Shown: in pieces, positions 22,292 through 64,000 of the stretch
Position numbering within the stretch: position 1 is the stretch's first letter
Layout of the letters: each line of letters begins with the position of its first letter
From: Henricia sp. BOLD:AAB3569
Taxonomy: Eukaryota; Echinodermata; Asteroidea; Spinulosida; Echinasteridae
DNA: 64,000 nucleotides
Direction: 5' to 3'
NCBI GenBank assembly: GCA_037783545.1
Contig: JBBELK010000539.1
Span: 483,068-547,067, forward strand
Notes under the pieces: generated by a model
What the model was told of the DNA's origin: nothing
Seen by the model: the letters and a program-made list of their open reading frames with translations, nothing else
The model's database searches: none
Made by a program: the position numbers and the translations under genes

Positions 22292-22383
22292 TTGAAACAT
22301 CAAAGTGTCAGTGAGCTGTGACATTTGGAAGATTTCCTGTACAAGCATCTTACGACGTAGTTTTCATCAAGTTCTTTACAACT
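22292..22383 (+). other. 5' UTR part of the receptor start-codon exon
   Basis: TTTTTGTCTTTTTTTTATTTAG is a strong acceptor ending at 22291. The 92 nt to the ATG contain in-frame stops, so coding starts at 22384, where the context is AACTATGG (A at -3, G at +4). Confidence 0.6.
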
Positions 22384-22459
22384 ATGGGACTGCACAAGTC
22401 AAGAATATTTTGTCTTCTATTTCTGGGTGTTCTGCTGGCAGAAACACAAGCTGAAATTG
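22384..22459 (+). CDS. Receptor exon: signal peptide
   Basis: Encodes MGLHKSRIFCLLFLGVLLAE then TQAEI plus one base (phase 1). A basic n-region, a hydrophobic core of about 12 residues and a TQA end suggest cleavage after A23. Confidence 0.88.
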
Positions 22460-25400: not shown

Positions 25401-28400
25401 ACCCCCCAAAAAAAACCATTCCAATTTTACAGTAATTTACTGATCTCCTTTAATTGTCCGAAAAGGCATGTGTGCTGTGATCTTTTTCTGGAAGTTTTTC
25501 CAAAAACAAAATATATTAACGTTTTTGTTTCTTTATTTTGAACAGAATTCACAGAGGAGCCATATGACAAAGTTGTCACAAAGGGCCAGCCCATTTGGTT
25601 CGACTGCATTGCGCGAGACACCCAACGCCCGGGCATTATCACCATCCAATGGAAACACAACAGTGCCCCCTTGAGTTCTGGTGGACGCGTAGCCATATTC
25701 CCTAACGGTACGCTTCATCTGTCGTCAACTCATACCGGGGACGAGGGAACGTACTCCTGCCTCGCAAGTCTGACTGCGTCCCAGGGATACGTGGATCAAA
25801 AGGAGAGCTTGCCGGCCATGTTGTATTTTGCATGTAAGTTGTGTTAAAGGTTTTGTGTAAAGTACTAAAGTGTAAAGTCAGTCACCAGGGTAATTGGGTC
25901 TAAACATTCTCTGGTAATCTGAAACGTTCATTGGTAAAATACAAATTTTGGGACATTGTAAATCTTGTATATTGGCTTTAAAGGAAGGGACAACACATGC
26001 AAAGGGTTGCCTAATTCTGTACGCTTCATGTAAGTCGTCATCTTTTGCGGTCGGATTTGAGAGGGCGTGAGTCAGGACACAACAGATTTTTACATACTTC
26101 ACGGCGTATGGGAGTCGGGAAACAAGGCATCAATCTTGACATCATTTTTGTTAACTGGGGCCATTTTCATAGAGCTGCTTAAGCATGAAAAACCTTGCTT
26201 GATAAAATGAGGTTACCAGCAAAAATTTCATGTGATTGTCATGGTAATGAAACAGTCCTCTAAAACTGGTCATATACTATTTCTATCACATGAGGATTTC
26301 ACTGGTAACATACTCTACCAAGCAAGAGTTTTTCGTGCTTAAGCTATTTTTTGTGCTTCAACACCTCTATGAAATTGGCCCCTGGTCATAGCCATTGCAC
26401 CTTACAGCATCCATGCCCCAATAGCCCCATACCGCCAATTCCCAGTTTCCCACCGACCCCTTCCCTCCCATCTGTGCCCCCTCATACACACCCCTACCAC
26501 ATTTCGGCAGCATACCGAAAACAAGGTTATCTAAGTTCCTCTCACAGTGCTTAATGCATAGCGTGCATAGCCTGCAGCTAAAGATCGTTACCTAGCCGTG
26601 ATTATCAACCCACGGTCCAGTTATGCCCCAAGCCAGGCGTGGAGAAAGTTACTTCATTGTGAAGGGAAAAAGGGAAGGGGCTGAAAAGGGGTGTTAGGGG
26701 AGGGGGCAATATCCTTCTGTAAAATGGGTGTAAGCTCTTAGTGTTGACATAAACATTGTCAACACTTGCTCAATCTGGAAATTAGGTTGTCGTAGTGGTA
26801 TTTTGCTTGACTTCTATCTCTGTGGTCCCGGGTTTGAATCCTGTCCTGTTTATAGAAAATTAACTATTAGCCGTATTAGTATTTTTAGGTATGGTGGATT
26901 GACAGGTTAATATGATTGGCACACGCTTGTTTATACGGTAATTACAATGCCTTTAGCATGTCCTTTTATTAAGATTATTCAAACTCTTGTAACTCTTACT
27001 GGATTTCAATATTCCCCTAAGGCCCTACAAAATCTGAATCCGCAATGTGATGAGGCTTAATCCCACACTGAAAGATCTGCTGACAACTTGTAAACGAGTT
27101 AGCTGTAGGCCTACTACAGGAATATCTGGTTAAAACACACCCCTTCCCCATGTTCCTTCCTGGGTCCCCTTTCTCCCCGTGCGGTTTAAGTGGGGTTGGA
27201 TACAGGTGTTGTAAGGCAATGCACCTATCAATTGTTGCAGCACCCAACCCCACCCCCCTCCCCTCTACCACCCTTTAGGTGGGAATTTTGGCGCGTAGAA
27301 ATCAAATTTCTGAGAGCAAATCGTGCATGTTTTGCCCCCATGGGTGGGGATTTTGTCACCTAAATTTTGTCCCAAGGGTGGGGAATTTGTCACTTGAAAT
27401 GTGGGGCAGCCCTGGAGGGGGAGAAGGGGGAGGGGGAGGGGGGGAGGGGGAAGGGGGAGGGGGGGGGGGGGGGGGGGGGGGGGGAACAATTGATAGGTGC
27501 ACAAGTCTATCACAAGTCCCTGCAAGTCCTCAGTTTGTTTCTAAAAAAGGTTGCTGCAAGTCCCTACAAGCCCATCACAGGATCAAAATTAGGTTCTTTT
27601 GCATACTTTAAATTTATTATGTCCATGGTATACTGTACCCAAGACACATTTAATTCTACAGGTTATGGGTGCGAATCCAAGCCATGCTATAGTACATCTA
27701 CATGTGCCATTGGGCAGGGATTTTTGAAAAATGCTGAATAAGAATGCCCAATGTGACCCTCCTCTTTCGTCTGTACAATATCCAGAGGTACCACATGGGG
27801 CCATTAATTATCACAATTAGGGTCACATGACTGTCTTTCCACCCGGGAGCAGATTGGTCCCTGTGATAGTGAAAATGTGTTTGATTAGCTCATGAGTACC
27901 TAGTAACACCCCGTTTACACTCGATTCGCCTTTGCCGAATCGAACTCCGCAATTTCCAAAAAGGGGAGTTGAAGCCGGGTAGGCACTAAGTGTAAACGCA
28001 AAAGGTGAATTGAAAAAGGCGGATCAGACCCGGGTCTGATTCGCCTTTTTCAAGTCACCTTTGGGGTAGGGTTGAACCCCGCAATTGCGGGGTTGAACCC
28101 TGCAATCGTCAAGGTCGCTTGTAGTGTAAACGCTACCCGAATACAGATTCGGCAATTTGAGTGTCTGCAGTGTAGTAGATTTAATTGACCAATCTGGCAC
28201 TAGTGCAGCAACACCTAACAGCTCACGCATGCGCTGCAGTTACATTTAGTATTGACTTTTGCGGTTTCTGAAGAGAGTTGAAGCGATTTGGGGTGTAGTG
28301 TAAACGCAGCAAATGTTCAGTTTTGTGGTCGCAATAAAAATGCTGGATCTGTATCCACCTTTGCCGATTCGAGTGTAAACGCGGTGTAACAGGCAGCCTG

Positions 28401-31400: not shown

Positions 31401-34400
31401 AGGAATTCAAGTCACGTGAATTAGATCTGCGCAGATCTGAATCTGGATCTGTCCGAAACAAACTCGCCCTTAGATGAATTGCCCGACTTAGCCGTCTCAG
31501 TCATGTGACCAGACAGCTTCACCTCGCGATACAGGTGAATTGCAATGACAACAGTTGGAGGGAAATTCCCCTAATTGTGACATTCCTGTTTTGATAATTA
31601 ATGGCCCCATGTGGTACCTCTGGATATTGTACAGACGAAAGAGGAGGGTCACATAAAGCATGTTGTCTGGTCAGGGCAATTTGTGATTCAGCATTTTTCA
31701 AAAATGAATCTATGAAAAGGGTCTGATCTGCCATTTTCAATCAAATTTAGGGTGTGACTTCAGTTATCAGAGTAACTAAGTCTAAACATTCGCTGGTAAT
31801 CTGAAATGTCCAATGCCAAAGCGCATTCACTGGTTCACTGGTTTTAGTATAGACCCAGTAACATTAGCAACTCACAAAGGGTAATTTTTTCACTTTATTA
31901 ATCTATTAAACATGGCAATTTCTCTCACCCCCTCCCCTGCCTACATTTCTCTTTTCTCTTGTTTGTCCCTCACCTCCCTGCCCACCCCCACCCCCCACAA
32001 AATGGTAGACATTCATGTGCCAACTCTTCCACAAATTCCCGAAGATTGGTCAATTTTATATCTGCACACATAAACTTGTATACAAATTATCAGCCTTTGT
32101 CATTCATTTGTAGAGAATGTTCCTAAAACGTTAAAGTGAATATAAAAAACATATTTTGTTCTCCTCAGTTTTGAATCCGATCGATTTGTTCAACCCACCC
32201 GGTAACAACACCGTCACAGACAAGCAACTGGACCCCGCGTACTTCCAATGCGTTTCCGGTGAAAGCCGCCCTCTGCCGATCATCACATGGGAAAAGGATG
32301 GAGTACCAGTCACAGATGGGTTATCCTATGGAGAGCAGTTTGGGGGACCAGATTCTCTGAAGCGGTCGCAAACACTACAGATAAACGGCGTCCGCAAACA
32401 GCACGAGGGACGCTATCGGTGTGTTGTTACCAATCCGTTACTGAGGGCGCAAGTTGAAAGGAGTCAATTCACCACTCTTATTGTTCTTCGTAAGTGTATA
32501 AGTCATGTGTTTCCCCCTCCCCCTCCCTTCTTTGGAAAAACTTAAGAGAGTATAACACTGTGTCTCATAGCTCAGCTGGTAGAGCATCTGCCTGGTGTGT
32601 CAGTGGTCTTGGGGAAAACCTGAGGAGCATACCACTGTGCCTCATAGCTCAGCTGATTGAGCATCTGCTTGGTGAGTCAGAGGTTATGGGGGAAAACCTG
32701 AGGGAGTATACCACTGTGCCTCATAGCTCAGCTGGTTGAGCATCTGCCTGGTTTTCCAGAGGTCTCCGGTTCAAATGCTGACAACGACCATATCACTTTT
32801 CTCTCATTTCATGTATATTGTCATTTTTGTAAAGTTTTAATTTTAATTTTTTTCTGCAAATTTACAGCTAATCCCGGGGAGCCGTACATCTCCACAGCAC
32901 CCAGAAGCCAGATCATTCCTGTGGGTCATTCGGCAACATTCCATTGTCTGATCCTGGGCGACCCAGCTCCCGTGGTAACATGGCGACGACTCAGTGAACC
33001 CGACAACCTTCCAGCTACCGCCAACCGGTATGTTCTAGCCAGTGGCAGCCTGTTTTTCCAGAGCATTTCGGATGCGGACGACGGGAACTACATGTGCACT
33101 GGGACAAGCAGGCTAGGAACGATCTCAAGTCAGCCTGTTACCTTGACTGCTGCTAGTGAGTATAACAGTAGCTTAAAACCTGGTTCTAACTTTCACGGTT
33201 CGGGACCCAGAATTCTACGGTTCTTAACTGTGGTAAAACCGATGTGTTTTTTCCATGGATATCATGCATGGTTCTCACTTTCACGGTTTAGGGTGCAGGG
33301 GATTATCCGTGATTATCCTTGATAAATCTGTAGTTATGGCCACAGTGGTCCGGGACAGATCCTCACAATTTCATAGCATATCTGTCGCTTTCTCGTGGTC
33401 AGATGGGACATCCATTTATGTCCCAGAGTGTCTGGTTGTGCTACAGTTTTGTACAATCACGGTTAGTAAACAAAATTAAATTTTCAAACTTTTGAAAATC
33501 AAGCCACAGAGAAAACGAGGCTGCGGAATCGCGAGGGTTTATCTTGGAATAACACGGTCATGTCTATGGATTTGCCAAGGACAATCACGGATAAAAACTG
33601 TGGGCTTCTGGTATCCCGAACCGTGAAAGTGAGAAATGGGCTTAACTTTAGAACAAGAATGCTCTGGAGTTCTTCTTGGGGGCACTGTATGGGCAAGGTT
33701 CTTTAAAAAATGATGGAGTTCTGTGGAGTACTGCAGCTAAACAAAATTGGAAGAAGGGCAAAAACAGTTTGTGTAGGACTGTAGGGGCATAGTGGGGATG
33801 GTCGGTATATGGGTGGGGGAGGTATTGGGGTGGGGGAGGGGGAAGCTATAAGGGGATAAGGAAGGAAGCAGGGGATGGCATGGGGAAAGGAAGAGGGATG
33901 TTCAGAAGACTGACGGAAGGAAGGAATACAGGTTGAAAATGATTAAGCGAAATATTTTTCACATTCAACTGGCTGTCACAACCCAGACCAAACATTTTGT
34001 CTGCTTTCAAGATCATTAGCTTGCCACATTTTGTCAAATGAATTTCATTGGACTCTGCTAGACATTAAGGGGCCTGGATTAGCGACGGAACCATTGTACC
34101 TGGAGTGGTGATAGCTGCATGGAAATCCTGGGATGATTCATTTATCTGGAATTGGTTTGGATCATTCAAATACTGTGAACATGTTTCTAATGCTTGGGGC
34201 TCATCCTCTTAGAGATTTTTTTCAGCTGTTCCTAAAGTGGATCTGATTGGATACATAAACTCCTCAAAAAAAGTTCGGAAACCCAAGTTTGATTGACGAA
34301 TTCTCTCTTGTTGGAAAGCTCTGTTTTTCCTCTTTACAATAATGTGTCATTTGTTATGATTAAGCAATTGGAGGATGTGCAGCACAGCTGAATACGGGGG

Positions 34401-37400
34401 TGGGTGTAAAGTGAAATGTCACAAAATGCATTGCTATTGTCAAAAAGTGCATTGACACATTCCCATCCTCCAAGCAAAAGGGGAATGCACTGTATGACAA
34501 TAGCAGTGAATTTTGTGACAGTTCACTTTACACCCACTCCCGTATTCAGCTGTGCTGCACATCCCCCTTAATCGTAACAAATGACACATCATTGTAAAGA
34601 GGAATAACCAGGCTCTCTAGCGATACCAAATTCAAGGAAAATGAGAAATTGTAAGTCAAGGAAAGAGAAATTGTCAGTCAAACTTGAGTTTTCGGACTTT
34701 TTTGGAGCAGTTTATTTTGTGAAATTTTCAAAGTCAAGTAAAGGATTTTTAAAAAGGTGAGGTGAGGTGGGGATGGCTTGCGCTGACAATGTGAGTTAAA
34801 AATGTAACAATAGAACAAATTCAATCATGGTTTTTTGGCAGAAAAATATTTTATCACTTGTAATGATTAATTGAATTTGCAAAATATCAAATGGATTACA
34901 GAATTATTAATAATTTAATTGGAAAGTGGAAAATAAGTACATCTACCTCTAAAACTTGCCCTTAAAGAAATTATGACAATTTCAAGATTACTTTCCAAGT
35001 TTTACTTTTTCATAATATGAAAAATCCCCTCCAAAAATTTATGAATTGAGTTTTAAATGTTAACATTAGAGTTTGATGAAAATTGGATTTTGATGAAAAT
35101 TGGATTTTTAAAAACTTGTCATCGACCTGCTTATTGTGAGTTTTAATTTTCCCTGGGCTATCTTGAAATTTGCACAACAAAGCATTCCCCCCGATTTGCT
35201 TAATGAAGAACACAAGAATGTCAATAAAATTCGCCTCCCTTGTTGTGACCAATCAACTACAATGTGTTTACCATTAGATTGACCTGTTTTTATCCTGTCG
35301 CACGTGTCTTAAGCCCAGAACGATATACCCATTGTCCATGCAGTTGCCCATATTTGGTTCTTGTCAAATTGAGTGGACAATATGTTTTGACATGTCCGTG
35401 CAAGTTGCCTAACTCCTACACCCAAAGGAAATTGCCCACGCCCAGAAGTAAGACAGACCATTTTGGCCAAATTCTTTTCTCAGAAGTTTGTTTTAATGTT
35501 GAACAAAATGTGCTTTGTTTATTTTCAAAATATGACGCGCTGTGCGAAAATTAGTTGCTTCTCACAAAGCATGGGCTGAGTTTGAACTAAAAATTCAAAA
35601 ACCGATTGGAAATTCTGTCTGGTACCCAGAAATTCTAGACGGTATCCGAGTACAGCCAGAAATTTCCATTATGTGTTCAAATTTTAATGGGCTTCGATCC
35701 GCCACTTATACAAATATTGACTGTTCATGAGGGTGATGGTATAACCTATCGTCCCGAGGTGATCTGGAGATGGCAGGCCTGCTATTTTCCCGAGGCTGCA
35801 GGCCTGCCGTCTCAAGATCACTGAGGGGCGGTAGTTTGCACCATCACCCAAATAAAGAGCAGTCAATATTTGTTTTATGTACCTCATACATTGAATTTTA
35901 AATGATTGGTATTACAGGACAAAATTGAGTTTTCCGAGAGCCAAGCCAAAATGCACATTGTCCGCGCAAACGTGTATACTGGTTGCTGCATGCGAACGCG
36001 TGTGCGCTGTCACACGTGCGCGTGCTGGCACACGCTTGCGCAATATATCGCTAGGGAATAATACTTTAAAAAGTACTATCCTTTGACCTATGACACAAAA
36101 GGTCAAACAATAGTACTTTTTTCAGTTGCGCACGGAAATGGTTGAACTAATCCATATAGCGTGATCTGCTTTTAACCAATCAGTGAATGAGAATCAATGT
36201 AGGAGGTATATCATTATAGTTATGGTCTGCAATACTCGGCCCAGGCTGTGCGAGAAGCGACACATTTTCAAAGAACGTGTCACAAATATTCTAAGCGACT
36301 TAGAAACATATATTAAAATAATATTGTTACATCGTTTTTTTTGTTTATTTCAGGTATGGATTGGTCTTTCATTGAGAGTCCAAGTAACGTTGAAGTAGTG
36401 GAGGGCTCTCCGGCTACGCTGGACTGTCGACCACCAGCTAGCAAACCACCTGCAAATATCACATGGTATCGAAATAACGTGGAGCTGCAGCCTGACCCAG
36501 GTTGGGTCGTACTGGGTGAGTTGATGTGGATTCTTATGTTGTAGTTGAGTCCATCACATGTCCTCACAAGGTCATACCAAATCTCTGCAAGTCCTCAAAA
36601 GCCTCTGCAAGTCCTCACAAACCCCTGCAAGTCCTTACTCCATCTCAAGTCCCTGCTAGTCCTTACAAGTCCATCAAAGTCCATCACAAGTCCTCACAAG
36701 TCTACAACATGTCCCTGCAAGTTCTAACAAGTCCATCACAGGTCCTGGAGCTACCGGGCTTGTGACAGGCTTGTGACAGGCTTGTGACAGGCTTGTGACA
36801 GGCTCGTGACAGGCTCGTGACAGGCTCGTGACAGGCTTGTGACAGGCTCGTGACAGGCTCGTGACAGGCTTGTGACAGGCTTGTGACAGGCTCGTGACAG
36901 GCTCGTGACAGGCTCGTGACAGGCTTGTGACAGGCTCGTGACAGGCTCGTGACAGGCTTGTGACAGGCTTGTGACAGGCTTGTGACAGGCTCGTGACAGG
37001 CTCGTGACAGGCTCGTGACAGGCTCGTGACAGGCTCGTGACAGGCTCGTGACAGGCTCGTGACAGGCTCGTGACAGGCTTGTGACAGGCTCGTGACAGGC
37101 TCGTGACAGGCTCGTGACAGGCTCGTGACAGGCTCGTGACAGGCTCGTGACAGGCTCGTGACAGGCTCGTGACAGGCTCGTGACAGGCTCGTGACAGGCT
37201 CGTGACAGGCTCGTGACAGGCTCGTGACAGGCTCGTGACAGGCTCGTGACAGGCTCGTGACAGGCTCGTGACAGGCTCGTGACAGGCTCGTGACAGGCTC
37301 GTGACAGGCTCGTGACAGGCTCGTGACAGGCTCGTGACAGGCTCGTGACAGGCTCGTGACAGGCTCGTGACAGGCTCGTGACAGGCTCGTGACAGGCTCG

Positions 37401-40400
37401 TGACAGGCTCGTGACAGGCTCGTGACAGGCTCGTGACAGGCTCGTGACAGGCTCGTGACAGGCTCGTGACAGGCTCGTGACAGGCTCGTGACAGGCTCGT
37501 GACAGGCTCGTGACAGGCTCGTGACAGGCTCGTGACAGGCTCGTGACAGGCTCGTGACAGGCTCGTGACAGGCTCGTGACAGGCTCGTGACAGGCTCGTG
37601 ACAGGCTCGTGACAGGCTCGTGACAGGCTCGTGACAGGCTCGTGACAGGCTCGTGACAGGCTCGTGACAGGCTCGTGACAGGCTCGTGACAGGCTCGTGA
37701 CAGGCTCGTGACAGGCTTGTGACAGGCTCGTGACAGGCTCGTGACAGGCTCGTGACAGGCTCGTGACAGGCTCGTGACGGGCTCGTGACGGGCTCGTGAC
37801 GGGCTCGTGACGGGCTTGTGACGGGCTTGTGACGGGCTTGTGACAGGCTTGTGACAGGCTTGTGACAGGCTTGTGACAGACTCGTGACAGACTCGTGACA
37901 GACTCGTGGTGGGGCTTATGATATTTTTCTGACCAGAAAATAGATGCCTTAAAGTAAATTATTTTCTGAAGTTGCCTCGCTCTTTTAAAATTTTGATCAG
38001 TTCCAAATATCTTTCATCAGATATCTCTTTTTCCTGTCAACAGAAGACATTTTCAAATGTCTAGTGAGACACTTGTCATGCACAGGATATGCTTTTTTAC
38101 ACATGACTGCTAATGGCTTTTAAAACTTGTTTAAAACTCAAAGCCACAAATCTAACCACACCCTTTCTGAAGTCTAAAATAGGTTTTTAGCAATTACAAA
38201 GTGAACAATTTGACATAGGTACGACTTCCCAGACTAAATGTTTGCCAGGAAAGTAGTCTGCTTTTGTTCATAACAAAGTCTGGTGCCCTTGTTACCTTTC
38301 AGAATTAAATACATCCTTGGCTGTAAAGCCTATAATTATTATAGAGCACTGACCAAAATAGGCAGTTAATGATGTGTGGCGCCCTCTTTTGGTGCATAAA
38401 TGCTAGTCAATAATGTTGCTAATTTTTGGAAATCAAAGTGGTTTTCCCTCAAATTAAAGTCACTCCCCTGTTCTAGTTAAGATGGGTTGACCCCAGTTTT
38501 TAATTTGGACATAACGCAATATTTGGTATGTGCCTAATAACCAAACATGGAATGAGAGAAAAATCTTCGGGATTTAAACATGAGATCGCCGACACACCAG
38601 GCAGATGCTTTACCAGCTGAGCTGTTAGGGGTTTTTAGGGGGAAAAAACTGAGGGAGTATAAAACTGTGTCTCATAGCTCAGCTGGCATCTGCCCATTGT
38701 CGGAGGTCTCAGGTTCGAATCCTGATGAGGATCATATAATTTTTCTCTCATCCCATATTTGCTTAATTTGAATTATGCAAAAAAAATTAGAAAAATAATT
38801 CTTACAAGTTGGAGACTCTCCAACTTTAAATAATTATTATTATTTTTTTTTTCTCCGAGAGAATATTGCACAGAACGGGAAAACTCAATGGATATTGTAG
38901 AGTTCTTTTTAAGATTTCTCAAATATGAAACAAATCTTAAAGGATATGGTAGAAAATGTTACCTAGTTTGGACTTTCTCTGCCAGCCGATGGAAGGAAAG
39001 GCCAATTTCAAACCCAGGGGTTTTACCTCTCAGCTGTGTCCTTAGTTTATCCCAGTACACGTCCAAAACAACATTCCGTGGAAATGTCACGTGTAGATCA
39101 ATCAATGGGTGGTTTACCTGCAGAATCGGTCCAGAGGAATTACACATCCCCGTCCCCTCGAGCTAAGAACTTGTGTATTAATGAAAGAGTCGGGGTGTAG
39201 TGTTGAAGGATAAAATCCAATGTTGTGGGTGGAGAGAGCTGCTCAAATTCTTCCCTCTTTGCCCCCCCCCCCCCCCCCCCCCACCTCAAACTTTCCCAGG
39301 GGCGGACAACTGCATTTACTTTTAATTAAAATTGTGCGGCTAACGGTTAACCTTCGCACTATGGCTGGTGCTATGCTGTTGGCGTAATTTGTTTTACACC
39401 ACTGCGAGGGGAAACGAGAGGTTTTGTACCTTTTTAGCATCGAGGAGACTATATAATAGGTTAGGGGTTAGGGTTTAGGGTTTGGTATTTTTATGGAATT
39501 TAGGGTTTTGAATGCGGTCAGTTTGCAACCAGCTTCGTGGTCTTGTTAGAAGAGAGCTTGACTTGCAATCAGAAGGTCCCTGGTTCGAATCTCAGTGTTT
39601 GGGATTTTTCAAAATTTTTTGGTTTTCCCTTTTTCTCTAATAATGAGAGTAAGAGTTCTGGCTATTTCCAAGATTGTCACTTGAGAAGTATCAGTCATTG
39701 GAAACTTAGTAGACTCTATTCAGGTTGAAAAATTTGGGTGTACCCCACACTGCAGTGTAAATTAAAAAAACATGCATGCTGTTGTTGCTACATGGTGCAC
39801 GCCACTGCCTAGCAATCAACAGACTAATTGCTTTATGCCATTCTCTCTGACCTTAAATACGAACGGTATTGATTCTGTACTTCACACCTGTCTCGTGCAC
39901 CCTTGACAAATTACATAGCAACACAAATTTGGTCTGGTCATCTGAATACAAAGTGTACATATGAAAGGATGTACATATATCAGAGTATATCCCTCGTTGA
40001 ATTGAACACTGTTAAATATCAGTTTGCAGTACTAAGGTTGGGGGAAGGGGTTTGGTCAATCTCCTAACACATCCCCCCACCCTCCCCTTCCCCTTAGCTT
40101 GTTGTTAAAAATCCAGTCCATTATTGACCATGGATCACCGCTGCAATGAAAGCATTCTCTGCGCACTGTCAAGAATCTCGACCATTCTGGACAAAGTCTC
40201 CTGGCTGCTGTCAAGAACTTATTTTTCATCTTAGACCAGCAAAAGGTGACCTTGATGTGGCGCACATGTGATTCGACTGACAGGTTGTAGAAATGTCGAA
40301 GAGGACGTGTTGTTTTAATCGCATCAAACAGAACAACATTTTTAAAGTAAATTAGGAAGTAAGCCCAACGATTATGGACAAGTATACTGCAGTTAATTAC

Positions 40401-43400: not shown

Positions 43401-46400
43401 TTAACTCAGTGCTTTCCCGAGACACTATGAAAAACTTCATAGCGTGCTCGGGTGGGACTCGAACCCAAGACCTCCTGCAAACAAGGCAGACGTCTTGTAT
43501 TATCCTTCAAATTTTTACTGAGGACAAATTTAATGCTGGTTTCATGTTTTTCTTACACAAACATTTTGTTTCCTTAACTTTGTTTGTAATGTACGAAAAT
43601 GCTTTTAAAAAAATGCTTGATTAAATTTGTGGTAAAATGCCTTGCTTGGGGGCACACACAACCTCGTCCTGCAATAGCAAGAGGGTCAACTCACAAAATC
43701 TTCTCTAATAGTTGTCATAGCTTTACTTTTTGCCTGAATTGGGATGACTGCTCTTTGATAATATTTTTCTTGATAAAAGTGTAATTTCTAATGAATATTT
43801 TGTCCTTTTTTTTAAATTTTAACAGCTGTTGGCGATCTGTACTTCTTATCCGTTACCAAGGAAAATGAAGGAGACTATTTCTGCGTGGCAACTAACAATT
43901 TCATTCCTCGGAGCGTAACGTCTAGCACGGCAACATTAACAGCTCGAGGTATGTGCAAACTTAATAGTAGTTTGTTAACAGTCAATTTTGGAAGAAACAA
44001 AATTTGTGAAAAGATGTATGGACCTGTTGAAAAAGGGTGGATACAGTATGCCAACAGGACCAAAATATTTTGTCATTCTTGAAATATTCAGAATGACAAA
44101 ATGACAAAAAAATTATTATATTTGTCTTTTCCAAAAGCACAGATAGATTACATGAGAATTAGATCCCCAATTTTTAGGGTTTTTGTGAATCATGCAAATG
44201 TTTTTTTCCCTTTAAACAAATTCTTAATTTTCTGTACTTTTCTGCATTTTTTTTCTACAGTAATGGCTTCAATAACAAACCCGCCAATAAACAAAGAGGT
44301 GATTTTAGGCGGTGACCTCACATTAACCTGCGAGATCAGAGGTGATCCTACCCCTACAGTCACGTGGAAGAAATATTTGGTCGTTATCGCAGAAGGAGGG
44401 AGAATAACTATTGGGTAAGCAATGAGTCTAAATTCAAGTCACAAGCTATTCAAATGAACTCCAACAAAGGCATTCTTTTTTGCGTGTTCATCCTTTGCTT
44501 CTTGTTACTGGACTTGTGACGGACTTGTGACAGACTTGTGATTTTATCGGCTCTGGACTTGTGATAGACTTGTGATGGACTCGACGTGACAACCCTGGTC
44601 TTGAGTATGCTGCTTGGTCACAGTACTCTGAACATATGATATTTATGATTGCTTAATAGTTTGTTGAAACTTGACTGATTTACAGAAATGCTGGCCAGTT
44701 GTTGCATATTGTGGCTGTAATTGGATTGGACCAGGGAACGTACACGTGTGAGACATCCAATATGTACGGCACAGACACGGCATCAGCATATGTTGACGTA
44801 CTTAGTAAGTGCATATTAACGTACTGTTTATAGGTGAATACTCATAGAATCAAGCAAGGGCTAAAAATCCCATCCACATACTGACCTTGCACAAATCGAA
44901 CCTAGGACCACAGAAGTCAAAGGCAAGTAAAGTACTGCTACTCCAACCTGAGTCCTAAACTGGGAGCGCGTGTGGTTTAGTGGGTATGCACTTGTGGTCG
45001 AGGGGTTATGGGTTCGAGCCCCACTTGTGCTGTGTTTGTGTTCATCTGCCCAGTGTGTCAGAGGTCTTGGATTCGAATCCCGATAAGGGCCATATGATTT
45101 TTGTCTCATCCTAAGTTTGGCATTGAAAGCTAAATAGAAACTGTGACTAGCCAAATATAGATTGATGTTGAGCCTTATGCAGTTTAAGCACCACAGGAAC
45201 AAAAATGATGGCCTAAATCCCAAGATTTATTTTGAGATATTTTTGCCGCAATTTGGTAAACACCCAGCGATGATTGAGGTCTCAAGTTCAGTCAACTGTC
45301 AGATACACATACACCTACACATGCACAATAGTCCATCACGCTCTATTCCGCTCACTGCGGGAAACAATCAATTACGTGCCCCAATCGTCGTGCACTCTGC
45401 GAACCACAGTGTTAACAATTGTAAAGCCGGGCAACGGCACGCCGCAAAGCTGACTAAACCAGTGGCACTGCCCTCGCCTGATGGCAGGGTAGACCTTTGT
45501 CGTCACCGAATGATCGTGATTACTTAAATGGGGCACATGGGGGAAGCGTGATTCATTTGCTAATTGCTGCGAGAGGCGAAGGGAGCTCGAGGGAGATTGA
45601 TGATTGCGTGTGAGCCTCGGAGATTAAGGAATGTTGTGTATTTACTGCAAAATGGCAACGGCTCGGGTGTGGATAATTTTTCTTATGGTCATCATTCTTG
45701 CTGTTTCGAGGGGTAAGGGTTTAAAACTATTATTGACCTTCTTAAATTAGGGATTAAAAGTAGGTTTGGCCAGTTTTACACATACGTTTAAAACCGGATA
45801 GGGTCCTGGGCACTGATAATAGTCCAAGCAGAGGGCGCGGGCCATTATCAGTGCCCAAGACCCTAGCCGGTTTTAAACGGATTGTTTAAAACTGACCAAA
45901 TCTACTTTTAATCCCATTTTGCGTAAATCGGTAAAACTCACCAAAATTAGCTCGTCGTTTTGCATTCACTTTCTACACCCACAGTGTCAACACCGCGTTC
46001 GTACAACTGCTAGCTGTGCGTCGATATGTTTTTGTTCAATCGCGCGCTTAATACAAGCGTGTTGTACGCGCACGCACATGACTGGGTACTTGTCACATAG
46101 CACAGTGCACAATTTGCTTTCGGGAGCGAATTGTTAAAAACTTTGTTTCTCCCCAAATGTGTGCCAACCATGGCCTCCGTGTTGCATTGACGTCATGGTT
46201 CGTCAAACAATGGTTCTAGCTGGCATAAAGTATAAGAGTCTGGTGCCAGCTTTACCCATCCTGTTACTTACATTGTTCAATGTGAACAAAAGTTCTCAGC
46301 AATATTGATTTTCATGCTTGAGTACCTGTTGCTTTCAAGTGACAGATTTTGCCTGGAAGAAAATGTTTATGTCCATTATTATTTTTATAACTTTGGTTCA

Positions 46401-49400
46401 TGATTGAAATATAACAAAATAATCTAACAGACTTGACTCAGAGTTGCCTAGACTTAGTGGAACCCAGATAGATTATTTAGGACAGTTCTTTGGTCAACTC
46501 CAAATTGGACAACATCAGCTGTTAAATGACTAAGACTGACCAATCACGTATTGTGTAGAGGTTGTTAAAAAGATTTCACATAATGAAGCTTCGCTATAAT
46601 GACAAACCAGAACTGATGCTATGTTTACACCGAAGCACGACCAAGTTCGGGTCGACTTACGAGTTGTAAAATTCTGTATTTCTTGGACTCGTGAGTGGTC
46701 ATGACACATTTGTCAAGGGTGCGACCGAGAAAGTTTCCCGACCGTTTTGAACCGTTCCATACGGTAGGAGAACTTGTGCCGAGCGATGGCGATTGCCCCC
46801 GTGTTCAGGACTAACTTACGACCTTCTGACAAGTAACATAGGAGGAACTTAAGATCTTGCCGACCAACTCCTGAGGAAATGCTATTTTGACCAATTTTTT
46901 TTCGTAAATCACTCTCAAGTCCTTCGGGATTTCAGTGTAAACAGGGTATGAACTGATTGAAAGTTTGTTTGCATCACAAATTTGCAGAAAGTTTAACTCG
47001 ATTCAACTTGAGGCTGCTTTTTATTGCCCTCATGTTAAATTAGCTGAGCACTTTTTTTTACTTTGTGAAATGTTTTTGCTTTACAAATTTGGAGAATGTT
47101 TGCTGCAAAATGTATAACATCAATTTTACACAAGATTCGCGTTCTGATTTGCGTGAAGTATGTATCAGTCTTTAGCATGCTGTTACCATTAACTGAGCAC
47201 AATAGAATTACACTGACCACACAAGCATTTTCTGCCCCATGAAACTACTTTTTGAGCCAAATTTTGCTTAATTTTCTTCTTTCTCCTTAATTTTCCAGTG
47301 AGACCACAGATTACGACCGGTCCCGGTGATCTCCGCGCCGGCTTGGGCTCCCCCGTTCTCCTTCCCTGCGTTGCCGTTGGAGATCCCGTCCCAGCAGTCA
47401 CATGGTACAAAGACAACGTACAGATCATGCCGACCTCTAATGACCCCTACTACCAAGTGACCCAGGATGGTTTGAATATTCATGAGGTCAGAGTTCGGGA
47501 TGGAGGCAGTTATCGCTGCCAGGCAACCAACAAGGCGGGGACCAGTGAAAGCTTGGGAACACTGATTGTTGAAAGTAAGTAATTTTTTTTCTAGTTTGAT
47601 AATTTCTATAAAATGTCATTTGGTCGGTTCAGAAAATGTGGCTACATTTTTCTTAAAATTAAGCATACTCCCAACGTTACAGCTAACATGGTTGTATAAA
47701 CAGTTTTAAAAGTCTTTATCTCGGGACTAAAACAGTATTAATTTAATCAACCTGTGTTTAGTGCTGAATAAGAAATTGTGCGAAGTCACGGTCCTATTTA
47801 GGCTGGTTCCCTGGCTTAAAACGTTGCTATACTGCATTGGAGAATGGAGCCATAATACCAAGGTAGTCAGGGGCCTAGATTCATTTACGTGAGGGCGTCC
47901 TTGTAAATAAATATGTGCGCACACCCATTTATATAAATTCATGATCTTCGGGTATCTTTTTCTTGTAAAAAGATATATCAGCTGGAATCATTACATCTTC
48001 TATCTTCTATTTAAGTGAGGTTTTTCTGGTAAAATTATTGATTAAAATTGTGAGACATTGCAAATCCTATTGATAGCTTTACGGTGTCGTCACGCCTTCC
48101 ACCATTTTGACAATCATGACCTATGTGGCCCAGAGTGCTAACCAGCAAAAAGAGCAAGAAATACGCATTGGTTGCACTTACCTCTGTTGCTTAATCTTGC
48201 TTTATGTTGTTGCGCCATGGCTGTTGTATCGAGAAAGATAAAACTGTCTTTCTTCAGGCCAAATTGTGATCAAGTAAAAACACTTTCGTTTTTTACAAGC
48301 TGAGTACATGCTCAATAATTTAAACATATCGCAACGCGCGCGTGCGGCATTTTTGAATGAAAATACGCTGGTGGGTATTTTTTTACGCATGTTCATGTAT
48401 GTCTATTGGCGTGCGCGTGTACGCGCATGGCCGGTGACACCCAAACATTCCCGCATATTGCACGTGGTCAAAAGCTATCAATACACGGGTTTAAAACATT
48501 TCACTACACTCAAACAGTGTCTGAATGCTCGGTACATTTCAGGACAAGCCCCCAGCTGTAAGTAACTGTTTTTGCTGATTTAGCTAACATAGCGTCTGAA
48601 TCTATTGTCTATGATTGACCAAGGCATAGAGGCCTTGCTTGGGTCAATTAAGACTCCTTCGACAAGCTGCCTCGTTGATCGTTTCTTACATTAGATTACA
48701 GCAAACCGACGCTTGAACCCAAAGTCCAGACACATGGGTCGCGATTCGCTGGCATTGTGTTTCAGGTGAAGACTCCATGGTCATGATGAGTCAGGTTTTT
48801 GACGTCAGTGACTGGCCGTTATCTGTCCCTCCGCCTTTCCCTTGTTACGGTTTCATGTTACACTGTTTGTAGCCCTAAGAAGAAGTGTTTCCAGTCAGTG
48901 AGATTATGGTTTACCGTTGGCTTATCGAAGATTGGCTGTCGTTTGGATTAAGGAGTTTAGGCGGACTTTAAGACGTGTTATGTGCATTTGGCACCTGTTG
49001 GGCAAAAGATTTCAGCAGGGATTTGGTATCTTGATGACAATGTGTCTACAGGTTTACCAAAGGACTTTATAAAGTTACTGTATGGCTGTATTATGCATGT
49101 GCAGCAGCCGATTTCACGAATCCTTACGCACTGCATAAGTCCGCTTCCGCAACATTTTATTGCATAGGCTGCGCAACATTCCTGTGAAAATTACACGCAA
49201 GCTATAGGGCTTGCGCCATTTTGCAAAAGTTGCGCAAGCTGCGCACAGGACCTTTTTTTTCTTCAAAAGAATGGAAAGATGAATGAAAACATTTTTTTAA
49301 AGTAAAAATTGTAAAATCAAAAATTTAGTGGACAAAGTGTTCAGCGCATCCAGGTGTAGTTTCCATAAACGTTTGATGAAGTCAGATTTCTGTACACATG

Positions 49401-52400
49401 TTGTGGCAGCGCAAAAAAAAGGTCGGTCTGTAATTGTGGTTGTTTGTCAAACTTGCTCTAGTTTTGAACAGGGAAGAGATAGGCCAGCAAGGGTAACCAC
49501 TAGACTTGGGGAAAATATTTGACGGGTCATTTTCCTGGGTTGCCCACACTAGGCCTGGGGGAATCATGTCTGGAGTCAATAAGAATTAATTCCAAGTTGG
49601 GAATTGGACTCGCGATTCCGTCTTTAGGAGGAATCGATTCCCATTATCTTGGCAATTCTAGAAAGTACCCGGCGATTCTGGGTGTTAATGGATGCAGAAA
49701 TTATAACATTCTAGAAATATAGCAGTGTTTTGTGAGATTATTTTCAATTTTAATGTGGTTTAAATACGCATTGGCTTGGTGAGTTTTACCCAAAAAAAGT
49801 TCAGTGCAAGCAGGACTTTTGCTCTTAGATTGCCCGTGAGCAATAGGATCTGAGTCACCGAAGTGTTAACATTGATGAACAGTCTCAACCTACATATTAG
49901 ACCCGTCCTTGAGGCAAGCCATGCATTGATAGTCACGAGTGTGGAATGTAGATATGCTCCCAGGGTCCAATTAAATTAATGACTTCTTGTGCTCTTGAAC
50001 TAGATATTTAGCCAGGCTTGCTCCAATTTTCGAGCATATACAGTTTTTCAAAATGCAAATTCCATACGATCGAGGATGCTGTTGGATGTAGCTTATTTTA
50101 TTAGTCAGTAGCGTGTATGAACACCTCTCGTGGCAATGCTTGATTGCACCAGCCTCCGTAAGAGTCACTTAGGCTGGGTGTGCCACTCTGCCTGAAGTGC
50201 CTCCCTGAGCTTCTGCACTTCTAGGGCTGCTTTTTAGATGCGTAGCTATTGTCAAAAAGTGCATTGACACATTCCCATCCTCCAAGCAAAAGGGGAATGC
50301 ACTGCATGACAATAGCAGTGAATTTTGTGACATTTCACTTTCCACCCACCCCCGTATTCAGCTGTGCCGCACACCTCCAATTGCTTAATCATAACAAATG
50401 ACACATCATCGTAAAGAGGAATAACAGGGTTTTCCAATTATATAAAATTCAAGAAAAATTATTTTGCTACAAGAGAGAAATCGTCAGTCAAACTTGACTT
50501 TTCAAACTTTTTTTGAGGAGTTTAGTTAAAATAAATATCAGCTCGAGTTTGGCGTGAAAGTCCAATGCCTTGAATAAGCACAAAAAGCTGTGCCGCTGGC
50601 CTGTTTTGATCAAATAGAAATCGGTTATCTGAAGGGGAAAAAAATTGATAGCATCTTGTGGGTAATTGTGAACATATGATACAGGACAGTACAGCTACCA
50701 GTCACAGGTTGACCTTTGGAATATGAGAATAATTAAGTTGCATCTTAGTCTAATAAAAACCACATCGTCAAGGGATACCTGATCTAGAACGATCTGTACG
50801 CTTCCTCACCGCAAGCCGCTCTTAAAAACAACTCGCAGACAGTGTGGGTTTCCTCCCTCATGACCTTTAAAATTAAGACTGTGTTTGTGTCTGTTTGAGA
50901 AAAATCTGAGGTAGAATATTGTGTGAAATCTTGATGTGCCTTGCTTCAAGTAAATGAGCTGAAATTTTGAGTTCAGATTTTAAAGCTAAGCAAAATCAGT
51001 GTTCTTCACTGTACTTCTGATTTCGCACCTTAAAGGTAGTTTGGTAATTTTCCTCCAAAAAAATTACTGAATTATTATCTTTAAGCTTACTTGTTATCAA
51101 GATGGTAATGGTAGTAATCATCCTGTGAAATAATTTTGTCTGAATTGCACCCATTCATGAGAAAAATTACAAAATTATTGGAATCTCCAAAGATCGCCTG
51201 TAACAACTGAAGGTGGTTTTCTAAAAATCTTTTGCAGAATACCTTTTTACCATTCATCTCAACACAAAAGCAATGCATGGATTTTTCAAGTTTTCAGAAG
51301 TATTACTGCACCTATGTGGCTGAAATGTCTACAGGGCAGTCTTATCAACATGGGCTTCAAATCACAAGTGGAAATAACGCCGTTTGTAACAGTTTACCAA
51401 TCATGTGTTCTACCTTTAACTCTTACTACGGAATTGTTTCAAGGTCTCTGACGCTCTGTGATGTTTTTTTGGGATGTGTACAGGCGAGCTGCTTGCAGCA
51501 GCTTTCCGGCCAGAAATAAAACGTTGAGCGGCCCGCTGTTTTGAAAAAGTTAAAGTGAGCATTTTGGAAAACAACGACCTCTACAGGACCCATCAATTAG
51601 CTGGCGAAATGATGATCATTAAAAAAGTGATTAATTACCGGTGGTTGATTTGTTATGGGAGTTACCTTCAGAACAAAGTGTACGGTATACTCCATCTTGT
51701 TAAAGCAGTTAAAGTTCTAATTACCAGGAAACTGACCCATTCTTTCAGCAACAATTACCGCCCATCCTTGTACAAACTCTAAGCTTTAATTCCTCTGGCA
51801 TTGACAAATTCAATTTGCATTCCTTCCTGCAATAGTGTCCTCGGTGTGTTTGTGACCAGTGTCTAGTTTCATTTCCTTAGGTGAACGTTATGTCACTTAC
51901 ATGAAGATGCTCTGGCATCTATGGAGCATACCCTAGCAGGTCCAACCCTAGCGTGCCAACATCTGGAACATCCAATGTCATTCATTGCCTTTAGAATGAG
52001 TTGGAACAGGCACCTGTCCTGATCCTGCGGATGAAACAATCAGTCAAATACCGTTTACAATGGATCAGTGCTCGTAAAACATCCCCAAAAGTCTATCAAG
52101 GAAGAAAATGGTTGTACCCAGGTGTTCTTAATTGGTGGTTGATAGCTAAATTGTTCTCTTTTGTGAAATGCAACCTTTGGAAAAAATGCCAAAGGGGGGT
52201 ACTTGGGAGAGGAATTATGAAGTTCCTAAATACCCCTCCCTATTTCCCTTCCCCGTTCCTCTCCCCCCTCCCCCCACCCCCCCCCCCCCCCCCCCTCGTC
52301 AATCTTTCAGTCTTTCAAACTTCCTTGCAAGTGACACTAGGATTAAAACTTAATTAGGCATTGATAGATGTGTTGGTTTTTTGGATTACCTTGGTGGAGA

Positions 52401-55400
52401 TTGGGTTTCTACACAAAAATTATCAGTTCCTTGTACCCACGTTACCAAAAATTTGCCCCATCTTTAACGTCTTAAGGTCAGGACTTCCCAAAAGTTTCAG
52501 GTTTCTGTGCCCAAGATTTTCTGAATTATTATTTTTTTTCAAAAAAAAATTTATATACCACATCCAAAAGCGGAGGGACCGCCAATTACAAGAATGGGAG
52601 CAAGTGTGGTTGAGTGCCTTGCTCAAGGGCACATGTGCCACAACCCGTCACGGCCAGGAATCGAACCTACATTCTAGTACTAGCACAGGAACTTAAGTTC
52701 GACGCACTAGACCGCTCGGCCATAACACCTAGATAGGCAGTGGTCTTTGGCTTTCTTGATAGTTACGGCTCAATCTCAGGAAATTTTAGATTTTTGTCAA
52801 AACTGTAAGAAAATTGTTGTTAATAATTTGGTTTTTTTAGGTTTTATGGAGCCCATTTTGGTGTTAATTTGCCTTATTTGTCTATTTGACCCATACCCAG
52901 TTTGAAAACCTTTAACTTCTTACTTTATTCTGTGTTCGGTAACTTGACAAGAATATTAGTTGTGTGTGTCCCTATTAACACAACCATAGTAGCTTAACGG
53001 CCCTATAGATGATCTGTTTTTGAGCGATTCCGGGAATAAAACCTTTCTAAATCAAAGGAAAGACATCAACAAACTCATCCGAAGACGTTTCAGCTTTGTC
53101 AAATGTACCACGGTTTCTAAAAACATGGAAATCCATATGCGTTTTGCCGGTCTTGGCGGGGTGTTTCAAATATTCGTTCTCAGTCGGTCGCGTACTCTTT
53201 GGCTCGCGTCATGCACTCTGTGGCGCGTGTCATACTGCATATGCGCTCGACCCATAGAAAATGCATCGCGTTGGAACAGCACACACGCAGTACACGGCGC
53301 CCATTTCGGACCGCCCAGATGAAAAGTAAATCGTTTGCAAACGACCTAAATAATTTCATCTTCATAGATTATTTTCTGGTAAAATTATACCATCTCGGGC
53401 GGAAACATTTTATTGGATAGTTACTACCAATTCAATCTTTACTTTGAGGAAGGTTTTCCCTGTCAACTCGTTGATTAACGTTTGGGGTCATTGCAAATGA
53501 TATAGTCGGCCTTTAAAAAGTCCATTAGAAATATCGGTTTTAGTTTACAGGGAGAAAACGAAAAGGTATAAGGTCACATATTGCCCATATTATGTTTCCC
53601 ATTACGCTGATTAGAACAATATTTTTCCGTGGTTTTAGATAAAATACGATCCGTAGCCCATGTAACCCAGTCCCCAAGTTATCAGGAGTATTTTCCTATT
53701 GGTCATTCACCAGTCCATCTTCCTGTTTCCAATGATAAGATCAAATCCTCCAATTATTTTTTTAAGATTTTTATCATTTTTACTTGATCCTTTTGACCTT
53801 AATGTATCAAGTTTAACTAAAATGCGAGACTGATGACACACAGGTGGTCGTTGGGAATCCAAAATATTATTGGTCAAAACAAGAAATCAAATTTTAAGAG
53901 GATTTTAAGTCATTTAGGAACTGGTGTGGTCTCCAAAGAGTCTCGAAGACAGATCTCATTTCTTAAAGACAGTCCAGGGATTGATTTGCGGTCAAACTTT
54001 GAAAGATAACTGACATACAGTTGTCACTTTTTAAAATAATTAATAAAAGAAAGAAATCCAAGCTCCTATTGCAGTGTGACGTATATTTTGCTGATGAAGA
54101 CCAGTTTGATAACTTAGGAGCCCCTGACTACTATGGCCTTATTTTCCATGCAATATAGTTAGGGTACCAGCCTAAATAGGACAGCGGCTTTGCACAATTT
54201 CTTGAAAGCATGAACATGTTTTTTAATTGTTTTCTTGGAACGTACAGTTAAAGTCAGAAGTTTACATACAACTGTGTTAAAACTGGTGTGCTTAAACTTG
54301 CGTATTCACCATTTTTGTAACAGTCTTTACTAAAGTCTTGATTTTGTGGAATTCCTCACGTGCTTGCAGTACTTAAAACATAGCTTGCACACCTTGCAAT
54401 GGTTCGGGTAGTCCTGTTTACCATTTTGGGTGATGATGGTAGTTGTGTACATGTATGTAAACTTCTGACTTCAACTGTACATGTAGATGAGGTACTGAGC
54501 TGACTTAAACACAGGTTGGTTTTCATCATACACATCCTCAATCACACATGGAGATAACGCCTTTTATATTGTAAAATCTTGCAGCCCCGCCAGTCATTAC
54601 CACTTCGCTGACCAACCAAACCGTGTATCAAGAAGCCGTCGTGTATTTCACCTGCCAAGCGACCGGCGAGCCCCAACCGGACTTGGTCTGGTTCTTTGAG
54701 GACGGTCCAGTGCCTAGCTGGGGTAGCATCTCAAACCAAGGCCAGGTACTGACCATTGTATCGGCTAGCGAGATGACCACGGGTAAAGTGACTTGCCGAG
54801 CCGAGAACAGACGGGGATGGGTTGAGTCGGAAGCCTATCTGCAAGTCAGAGGTATGTAACAATTCCTTGTTCTTCATTGTTATGAAACGGATGTGAGATG
54901 TTTGAAAATCGAAATGAAATACCTGTCAACCAGAGGGCCAAATTTAGTATCTTGAAAAAAAATATCTCTACAGTTTTTTGAGAAATGGCAATGTTATAAA
55001 GTACTTTTCAGCAGAGTTTCAGTTTAATATATATCAAAGTGACAAATCAGCAAAATTGGTGTTACGCATGGGACACTATTGATCACGTTCAAATGACGTC
55101 ACTTCCTACAAATAGTCACGTACATCAGGATTTTGAGCGTATTTTTTTGTGACGCGCATCGGTTGTGCCGTATTTTGAACAAATTTTGAGCAACATGCGC
55201 GTGTGTTTGGAACATTTTCCAGGGTGTGCGTGCGCGTACTTGATGGCGTTTAATACTCAGTAGCATTTTTTCCTACGAAGATGGCGTCTGTGAACGTGAT
55301 CAATTCAGTTGATACAAAAAGCGTTATGCGTGGGAGACACAAGTGGATATATTCCAGACCATTCCAGACTGAAATTTCATTTCATTCCAGAAAGACATTT

Positions 55401-58043
55401 CATGAAACATGAAATAACAGATAGTTATTGCTGAACAGCATGAATTTGAAATGTTCATGTTGATTTGAAACTCCCCTTTTACAAATTACACCATTTGTAC
55501 TAATCTTTATTTTCTTATTTTCATCTTGATGTAGTCGCTCCAGACATTTCAACAATCAACGATTTCACTCTTCAAGAAGGAGCAGGCCTCAGCGTACAAT
55601 GCGTTACCAGTGCCGTCCCCGAACCAACAATTACGTGGCTGAAAGAACAAGACGTCATTATTGCATCCGACAGAATAACGATCAGTCCTTCAAATACACT
55701 GACGATTTCATCAGTCATGAAAACTGATCAAGGTATGAATTGAAGAATCTTGGTTTCATTTTTTGGTCTTGTGAGCACGACATAAACCCTGTTCTCATCA
55801 AGGAGTGAGAATTTCCCCAAATCTGTGATGATTTTTTTCAAATTTTGTGAGAGAAGCCTCGATGTAAATTTTAAAATATCAATTGGAGCAAATGTTTGTT
55901 TTCTTCACATATTTGAATGTTAGCTTTAGCAAACCAACTAAAAAGTATTGTTTCATTTTCTGTTTAGGTGCCTATAGCTGTGTTGCTTCCAACGATGTCG
56001 GAAACACGAGGGAGACTTTTCAACTCATAGTCCTGGGTAAGTTCTCCCTGTTTTTTTTCTCTTCATATCAGGGTTAAAGTTAAGTCTATCACAAGTCCTC
56101 TTAGGCCATCACAAGTCCACCAAAAGTCCTCATAAGCCTTCACAAAGTCCTCACAATTCTTCAAGAGTCGATCACAAGTCTTCACAAGTCCTCACAAGTC
56201 CTCACAAGTCTACCACAAGTCCCTGGGTCTTATCTCAAGTCTCATTTGAAAAAAACTAACAATTGTTCTACATGGGGATTTGCGTTGGTGTAGCGGTTCT
56301 TTCCTCGCCTTCCACCAATGGTTCGAATCCCGTCCGGGTCAGTATGTGGATTGGGTTATCTCAGTCCCTGCTTGATTCCGTGGGTTTTCCCCCATCACGT
56401 TGGTCTGTGGGGTTTTCCTCCCACCTCTAAAACTGAGAATTTCTTCCTGTTCTCTCGCACTTCGTGGCTGAGCTGAAAAACCTCCTAGGTAGCTACAGGG
56501 CAAAGACTTAAGTCGGCAAATCCTTCAGCAACTAGATCCCTTTAGGGGATCATAAAAAAAAAGAAGAAGAAGACATAGGATCTTTCAGAAGGCATCAGCT
56601 GACAGTCATGTTCATTGCATGAGATATGACAATGGGATGCCATGCTTGCACAGATAAGGACCACTCTAACAATTGTTCTACATGCCAAAGGAATTTTCCC
56701 ACTCGCGGGAGGGTTTCTCGAGGGAGAAGTTTCTCGAGGGTTTAAGTTGTCCACCACGATCAATTCTTTGCCGAGAGGTGTAATTTGAGTGATGATTTCC
56801 CACTGTGCCGTTTCTAAATTGGTCCCTCTCTCGAGTGGGTTTCCAAGGACATGGATACGACAATTTTGGACTACACATGGTTCCTATTCTAGTTCACATT
56901 GGCTGTAGGATCCTGATATCAGCACTCAGTATTTCCCTCGAGTCGAGACCAGCAGTCCCAAACGGCCATCAGATCCTTTTCCGCAGGAAATTGATAGCTA
57001 GTGTTGAAAATATATCGTGTCTCGGTAATTGAAGTCTTCAGGTTCCATTACTTCTTGTATTCATCCGTTTACTACATTTTTTCGGACGTTTTTTGCTTTA
57101 ATTTTTCCGTCTGTAAAAAGTCATACGGAGAAAGCTCATAAATTTTGCGGTATTTACAAATGGCGCTGAATGATTTCAGTTTGCACATGGTATCATGGTG
57201 TGGTGTACCGCAACAAACTCTTTGTTAATTCTGCAGGTTGTAAGTTCGAATCCAACCTGACCCACGTCCATATTGCCTTGAGCAAGGCACTTTGTCATAA
57301 ATTGGCTCTGAGACTTCACCCAGGAGCAAATGAGTGCCTGTGATGGTAGTAAATATATCTTGACAATTTGACGATTTTTTTCTCGTGCATTTTTTTTATG
57401 CCCCATCTATGAACCCCCATCTGGAGCTTAGGGTCTGCTTATTGTTTTAGAGTGTGCTTTATGACGTCATTGCTTCTTTTCACGACATCCTAGCATCTTG
57501 TCATGACATAATTGATCCTTGCAAAAGAGAAATTGGTATATTTTGGTAAACAACTCATCCCCTTCTTTCCCACGTCGGGACAACCAGCCTACAGACTGCA
57601 AAAAACACCCCAAACAAACAAAATTTCCACGAGCAGTGCTTTGCTCAGCTTTAATTCGCGACCCTGTTCCAAGGTGGAATCAATTTGATTCCACTTGACA
57701 AAATGATGCTTCCTTCTCTAATTTCTCACATTTCCTCAACCTATTTGCCCCTTTCAACACTTTGTTTCTCCACCGGGTCCTGACACGTTCTTTCTCAAAA
57801 CTCTTCCCCTGAATCTTCCTCACGTTCCGAATCTTCGCCATTCAGTAATAACTCCCAGGTTTTACCGGTTTCAGAGACATTTCCTTCACTAATGAATCTT
57901 CCATTGGAAGCATTGCGAGTCAAAATTTGTCTGCTCCATGCCTGAAATACCATGTGACAAGTGCGTGGCCAATGGGCAGGATTTGTTGAAGGAAGGGTCA
58001 GAGACGTGCTGAGGGGTGGGGGGGGGGGGGGGGAGGGGGAGGG

Positions 58044-63231: not shown

Positions 63232-63264
63232 GTAAACAACTTACTATATTTTTTATTATTATTT

Positions 63265-63457
63265 TTTAACATTTATATACCACATCCAACAGCAGAGGGA
63301 CCGCTAATTACAGGAATGGGAGCAAGTGTGGTTGAGTGACTTGCTCAAGGGCACAGGTGCCACAACCCGTCGCGGCCCGGAATCGAACCTACATTCTAGT
63401 ACTATATAGCACAGGAACTTAAGTTTGACGCACTAGACCGCTCGGCCATAACACCCC
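63265..63457 (-). repeat. tRNA-derived SINE with Leu/Ser-like head (copy 2)
   Basis: Near-identical to 52545-52735: minus-strand TGGCCGAGCGGTCTAGTGCG and TAGGTTCGATTCCGGG. The rest of the window (63458-64000) shows no exon. Confidence 0.8.
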
Positions 63458-64000
63458 ATAATATGCTGAAATATAAATTTGTCAAACTCGGCCATCTCAA
63501 AATTACTGTTAAAAATCGTGTTCAGATCACAGAAATTGACCCCTCTCCCCATTTAACTTGTGGGTGTTGTTACATTTATGTCGGCTTCATAATTTTTATT
63601 TAAAATGAACAGAAACCTGCACTTTTGTGCTTAAGAAATTATACCTTACATAAATTTGCATGTTTTTATTTTTACACACTGAGCAAGTGCGATTGAGCGA
63701 CTCCAGTTAACCGTAGTCAACCAGAGTCCCTCAAATGACGTTTTATTTTCATTTAGTCGATCTACAGTCCACTATAGTCATCAGTCGAGTTTGCCCACTG
63801 TCCTGTTTCATTTCCCCTTCTTTACCTAACATTGAAATTGTTAAAAAGTGAGGAAAAAGCATCAAAAATGCAGTATTCAAGGAGTTTTGCGATGAACTTC
63901 AAATTTTGCCCGTTGGATTCAAACTACATTCTACACTTGTCCTACAAATTTGACAAATTTTCGCAGGTATTCAGAAAATGGGTTAAAAGGCCAATCATTT

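Follow-up and report, generated by a model that had tools for sequence, protein, structure and literature searches.

An Ig/FN3 receptor gene within the 64,000-nucleotide stretch of DNA analysed here (the window) contains, in the intron between its Ig5 and Ig6 exons, a short candidate start exon, SP2, which is probably an alternative first coding exon of the gene, giving a short receptor via an intronic promoter. SP2 has an ATG followed by an open frame, encodes a peptide with the quality of a signal peptide, ends at a donor in the phase that matches Ig6, is present in single copy and is rarely equalled when the DNA is shuffled; its promoter, transcription and use are inferred. Upstream ATGs, weak promoter signs and a near-miss ORF on the minus strand count against such use. 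The wider proposal, that one gene gives both an Ig1-8 receptor and a short Ig6-8 receptor with its own signal peptide and intronic promoter, as an Ig/FN3 counterpart of alpha/beta neurexin, is one that we consider evenly balanced.

Splice signals and reading frame were used to model the receptor gene, which is encoded on the + strand, as its own signal-peptide exon, SP1, and 13 further exons that encode Ig1-8 and a single FN3:

22292..22383, + strand, presumed 5' UTR of SP1, following acceptor TTATTTAG, its start placed from the sequence
22384..22459, + strand, SP1, signal-peptide exon of the full-length form, coding portion (MGLHKSRIFCLLFLGVLLAETQAEI, phase-1 donor GTAAGA)
25546..25833, + strand, Ig1 exon
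32169..32489, + strand, Ig2 exon
32868..33155, + strand, Ig3 exon
36354..36515, + strand, Ig4 first exon
43826..43948, + strand, Ig4 second exon
44261..44414, + strand, Ig5 first exon
44686..44804, + strand, Ig5 second exon (Ig5b), phase-1 donor at 44804
47299..47574, + strand, Ig6 exon, phase 1-1, proposed splice partner of SP2
54585..54851, + strand, Ig7 exon
55535..55732, + strand, Ig8 first exon
55968..56036, + strand, Ig8 second exon, weak on its own
62298..62432, + strand, FN3 first exon
63058..63231, + strand, FN3 second exon (FN3b)

All junctions in this gene are in phase 1, except for a phase-2 junction inside Ig5, and the 883-residue modelled product showed Pfam matches to I-set (eight), Ig_3 (eight) and fn3 (one). 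The presumed SP1 leader (22292-22383) contains no ATG, and SP1 itself showed a cleavage score of 11.73 and a core hydropathy of 3.10; like SP2, it is too short for long-ORF searches. The window ends where contig C539 ends, and the gene continues past this point, with its membrane and cytoplasmic parts outside the window; comparison of the window's last 1.9 kb with the genome gave matches only to itself and to repeats. Comparison with solved sequences returned relatives in mixed order (titin, contactins, Robo, Dscam, DCC, sidekick and others) and singled out no single receptor family. Two repeats were also noted along the gene: an 11-bp tandem repeat, GGCTCGTGACA, at 36757-37908 (approximately 105 copies, 98% matches) within the intron that splits Ig4, and a repeat of approximately 200 bp at 63247-63464, just 3' of the last FN3 exon, with at least 39 other genome matches at 91-97% identity.

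The features in and around SP2, which lies in the 2,494-bp Ig5-Ig6 intron (44805-47298), are as follows:

45253..45651, + strand, possible promoter/leader region, suggested by composition
45600..45602, + strand, upstream ATG out of frame with SP2, in weak context, opening a frame that runs over the SP2 start
45631..45651, + strand, in-frame upstream ATG and six further codons (MLCIYCK), preceding ATG 45652
45652..45712, + strand, SP2, candidate first coding exon of the short form (encoding signal peptide MATARVWIIFLMVIILAVSR and ending at phase-1 donor GTAAGG)
45750..45915, no strand assigned, palindromic multi-copy element, approximately 10-40 bp past the SP2 donor and excluding the exon

In the proposed arrangement, a promoter in the Ig5-Ig6 intron would start an mRNA with SP2 as its first coding exon, translation would begin at ATG 45652 or at the in-frame ATG 45631, and splicing of 45712 to 47299 would yield a short receptor in which a cleavable signal peptide encoded by SP2 leads into Ig6-Ig7-Ig8-FN3 and whatever both forms have in common beyond it. 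The full Ig1-8 receptor, with SP1 as its signal peptide, would come from a promoter lying upstream of 22.3 kb.

The first-pass annotation had described a 21-codon ORF starting at 45652 in the context AAAATGG and ending in a phase-1 GTAAGG donor, and direct reading of the sequence bore this out: SP2 is a 61-nt open stretch of 20 complete codons and the first base of a 21st that the splice junction divides, with A at -3 and G at +4 of its start, and it ends at 45712 as GGG/GTAAGG in phase 1. Both of these context bases are present at the SP1 and SP2 starts and at 88 of the 1195 + strand ATGs of the window, and this start context was not a criterion in the scan for signal-peptide exons described below. 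With donor and cleavage matrices whose weights were set by hand, the SP2 donor scored 8.44, a level attained by 29 of 4055 + strand GTs, that of SP2 included, and within the span of the 14 modelled exon donors of the gene (4.65 to 9.34). The claim that Ig6 starts in phase 1 and joins SP2 in frame also held, as splicing of 45712 to 47299 reads open through FN3b, with the junction product MATARVWIIFLMVIILAVS^RVRPQITTGPGD (i.e. ...ILAVS^RVRPQITTGPGD). The encoded peptide has an Arg in a short N-region and a 12-residue core with a mean hydropathy of 3.31, and its A-V-S cleavage site scores 6.55; the highest score given by the matrix, 6.85, is reached four residues further on, at V-R-P, and served for the ranking described below.

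An unused intronic stretch that opens with an ATG, and that by luck is hydrophobic and ends at a strong donor, would account for the same observations, and this was assessed by scanning the window for ORFs with an ATG, 13-40 codons and a phase-1 donor of at least 4.5, which returned 39 combinations on the + strand and 57 on the minus strand. Ranked by cleavage score, the + strand was headed by SP1 (11.73) and SP2 (6.85, appearing twice by virtue of its two in-frame ATGs), with the next at 4.84. On the minus strand, a near-equal ORF at 17298-17229, MKTCPLSWPPCIRSIVLLSIVFP, which speaks for chance, had a cleavage score of 6.84, a donor of 8.01 and a core hydropathy of 2.39, and a second ORF had a cleavage score of 5.36. 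A stricter screen of the whole window, covering three phases with cleavage of at least 5 and core hydropathy of at least 2.5, retained only SP1 and SP2 on the + strand and none on the minus strand, the ORF at 17298-17229 failing narrowly on its core (2.39 against the limit of 2.5, compared with 3.31 for SP2).

Shuffling of dinucleotides in 200-bp blocks (3354 replicates, 213,985,200 bases, SP1 and SP2 excluded) gave 2 phase-1 hits and 4 hits in all phases at thresholds of donor 8.4, cleavage 6.8 and core 3.3; 8 and 16, respectively, at 8.0, 6.5 and 3.1; 17 and 36 at 7.5, 6 and 3.0; and 312 and 709 at 6, 5 and 2.5. At 7.5/6/3.0, near the quality of SP2, the expected number is approximately 0.0002 in the 2,494-bp intron (sense strand, phase 1) and approximately 0.02 per window (both strands, all phases), and three Markov models of 6 Mb each (18 Mb) produced one hit at these thresholds; at the looser 6/5/2.5, approximately 0.4 such ORFs would be expected per window on both strands and in all phases, a rate that leaves room for luck. 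The thresholds were fixed after the candidate had been seen, just below the two top exons, and the candidate came out of a first-stage reading of probably many windows, which bears on the chance figures; because of these two circumstances the figures favour a real exon but fall short of proof. With the start context, the donor and the signal peptide simultaneously good in SP2, and with several upstream ATGs on the other side of the account, we consider a chance origin unlikely, while allowing it an appreciable probability. The signal-peptide reading put forward for this exon in the first pass is, statistically, well supported by the scan, the shuffles and the Markov models.

The region before SP2 gave a mixed picture. 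The 400 bp ending at the SP2 start (45253-45651) have a G+C content of 49.5% compared with 40.6% for the window, and a CpG o/e of 0.90. Of 618 overlapping windows placed in introns, 3% are at least as rich in G+C, 16% have at least this CpG o/e and 3 combine the two. As a promoter sign this composition is suggestive at most, and the 400 bp before SP1 have only 27% G+C, so that composition is no proven guide to the starts of this gene. CpG content considered as promoter evidence was dropped as weak. No match to TATAWA was found in 45120-45660, and the Inr-like and CCAAT matches in the same interval are short and uncalibrated.

Six ATGs at 45481-45631 precede the SP2 start, four of which are out of frame, and the one at 45600 opens a 47-codon frame that overlaps the SP2 start after splicing. 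An mRNA from a distant transcription start would consequently be poorly translated, and either a start close to the ATG or leaky ribosomes would be needed. An in-frame stop (TAA, 45625-45627) lies one codon before ATG 45631. Acceptors at 45054 and 45183 scored 7.32 and 5.72, within the range of the 13 real acceptors of the gene (0.70 to 13.52, leave-one-out), and SP2 could be the 3' end of a longer exon starting at one of these sites, downstream of a further non-coding exon.

The first-pass annotation had offered two readings of the locus, a short receptor from an internal promoter or two tandem genes, and it is the former that better fits the present results. Under the latter, an Ig1-5 gene would end before about 45.6 kb and a separate Ig6-FN3 gene would start at SP2, which would agree with the position of a signal-peptide start exon before Ig6, with the acceptors at 45054 and 45183, and with a 44-residue frame from 44953 (AG 44951-44952, acceptor GAG; mean hydropathy 1.72 over 19 residues) that comes second to the SP2 stretch among the phase-matched frames of the intron. 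However, no AATAAA is present in 44805-47298 (there are 46 on the window's + strand, so this is only mild evidence), and the single ATTAAA, at 45753, lies 3' of SP2. Moreover, intron retention past Ig5b would add only nine residues before a stop, Ig5b joins Ig6 in frame with a normal donor and acceptor, and a search of hydrophobic frames between Ig5 and Ig6 found no clear terminal or membrane-anchor exon, which makes an anchor exon in this intron unlikely. The tandem-gene reading is accordingly lowered, and we regard it as improbable.

The SP2 stretch is the most hydrophobic phase-matched frame in the intron (2.28 over 19 residues), which, together with a length that is a multiple of three and phases that match when AG 45627-45628 serves as acceptor, would also suit an internal 84-nt phase 1-1 cassette exon (45629-45712) inserting a membrane-spanning segment between Ig5 and Ig6. 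This acceptor, however, scores -3.06, a value matched or bettered by 66% of the window's 3477 AGs, as against 0.70 to 13.52 for real acceptors, and such an insert would place Ig6 and the later domains across the membrane. We find a cassette exon scarcely credible.

A complete start exon directly before a shared Ig exon could also be the relic of a receptor assembled by fusion or exon shuffling of two neighbouring Ig genes, in which case SP2 would be what remains of the start of the downstream gene, unbroken in sequence yet little used; phase 1 at all junctions but one would permit such fusions. Against this, the frame, start and splice site of SP2 show no sign of decay, and no close paralogue of Ig6-FN3 in unfused form was found outside the locus and its copy on contig C116 (none above 43% identity among the matches listed, with 110 of 433 candidates scored). 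A relic of this kind appears improbable, and an alternative first exon in use is the explanation that we prefer.

In a comparison with the 741-Mb genome, 45250-45735 had no match other than itself and its C116 counterpart. Repeated pieces occur before SP2 (44829-45119), and the first part of the palindromic element beyond it (from about 45723-45750) has at least 42 further genome matches at 88-98% identity. Derivation of the exon from a transposable element or repeat was considered and rejected, as the exon is without copies elsewhere in the genome beyond the C116 duplicate and repeats only flank it.

The locus is also present, in the opposite orientation, on contig C116. Up to about 42.6 kb, the C116 blocks that align with the window show 83-98% identity; the two contigs diverge before 43.9 kb, and over 43872-56499 they differ by two mismatches and one gap. 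This latter segment, near an end of each of C539 and C116, has the look of a single haplotype that was assembled two times, and its near-identity says nothing on constraint on SP2. In the C116 copy of SP1, 4 of 76 bases differ, with three amino-acid changes, so that variation within the genome affects even SP1.

Arrangements of this type are already known, and the present gene adds a candidate of that type among Ig/FN3 receptors; the literature consulted concerned the arrangement itself. Neurexin genes produce a long (alpha) form from a 5' promoter and a short (beta) form from an internal promoter (PMC11909895). The likeness to the receptor is that a single surface protein exists in two lengths, whereas the neurexins have LNS/EGF domains rather than Ig/FN3 and their promoters are demonstrated, in contrast to the intronic promoter proposed for the receptor. 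A signal peptide of its own is also a feature of beta-neurexin.

The solved sequences closest to the receptor include Robo, DCC and contactins. Roundabout genes (ROBO1/DUTT1, ROBO2a/b) resemble it in encoding Ig/FN3 receptors and in using more than one promoter and first exon. The known Robo alternatives alter the extreme N-terminus and keep all Ig domains, and Robo consists of 5 Ig + 3 FN3, whereas the present gene has 8 Ig before FN3. The IgLON genes Lsamp, Ntm and Opcml have twin promoters, 1a and 1b, and alternative first exons that encode alternative signal peptides (PMC5288359). They are like the receptor gene in being members of the Ig superfamily with alternative signal-peptide first exons, but their alternative exons precede the first Ig domain and the processed N-termini are identical, whereas the receptor would lose five Ig domains. 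The human surface receptor ADGRG7/GPR128 has an intronic promoter from which a shorter form arises that begins with a signal peptide (PMC11039983); unlike the receptor, this is an adhesion GPCR, and its long forms carry a predicted N-terminal transmembrane helix rather than a signal peptide.

If SP2 is used, the gene would provide a second receptor that lacks the outer five Ig domains and whose expression is controlled separately, and promoter choice could switch ligand choice. Start exons of approximately 60 nt are easily missed in annotation, SP2 coding for only 20 residues, and the joint scan for signal-peptide quality, donor strength and phase found both start exons in 64 kb.

Elsewhere in the window, a FAM124-domain gene was identified on the minus strand at 16252-16986 (Pfam PF15067, 8.2e-11), and a CpG-rich stretch at 18300-18800 (o/e 1.33) may be the start region of that gene.
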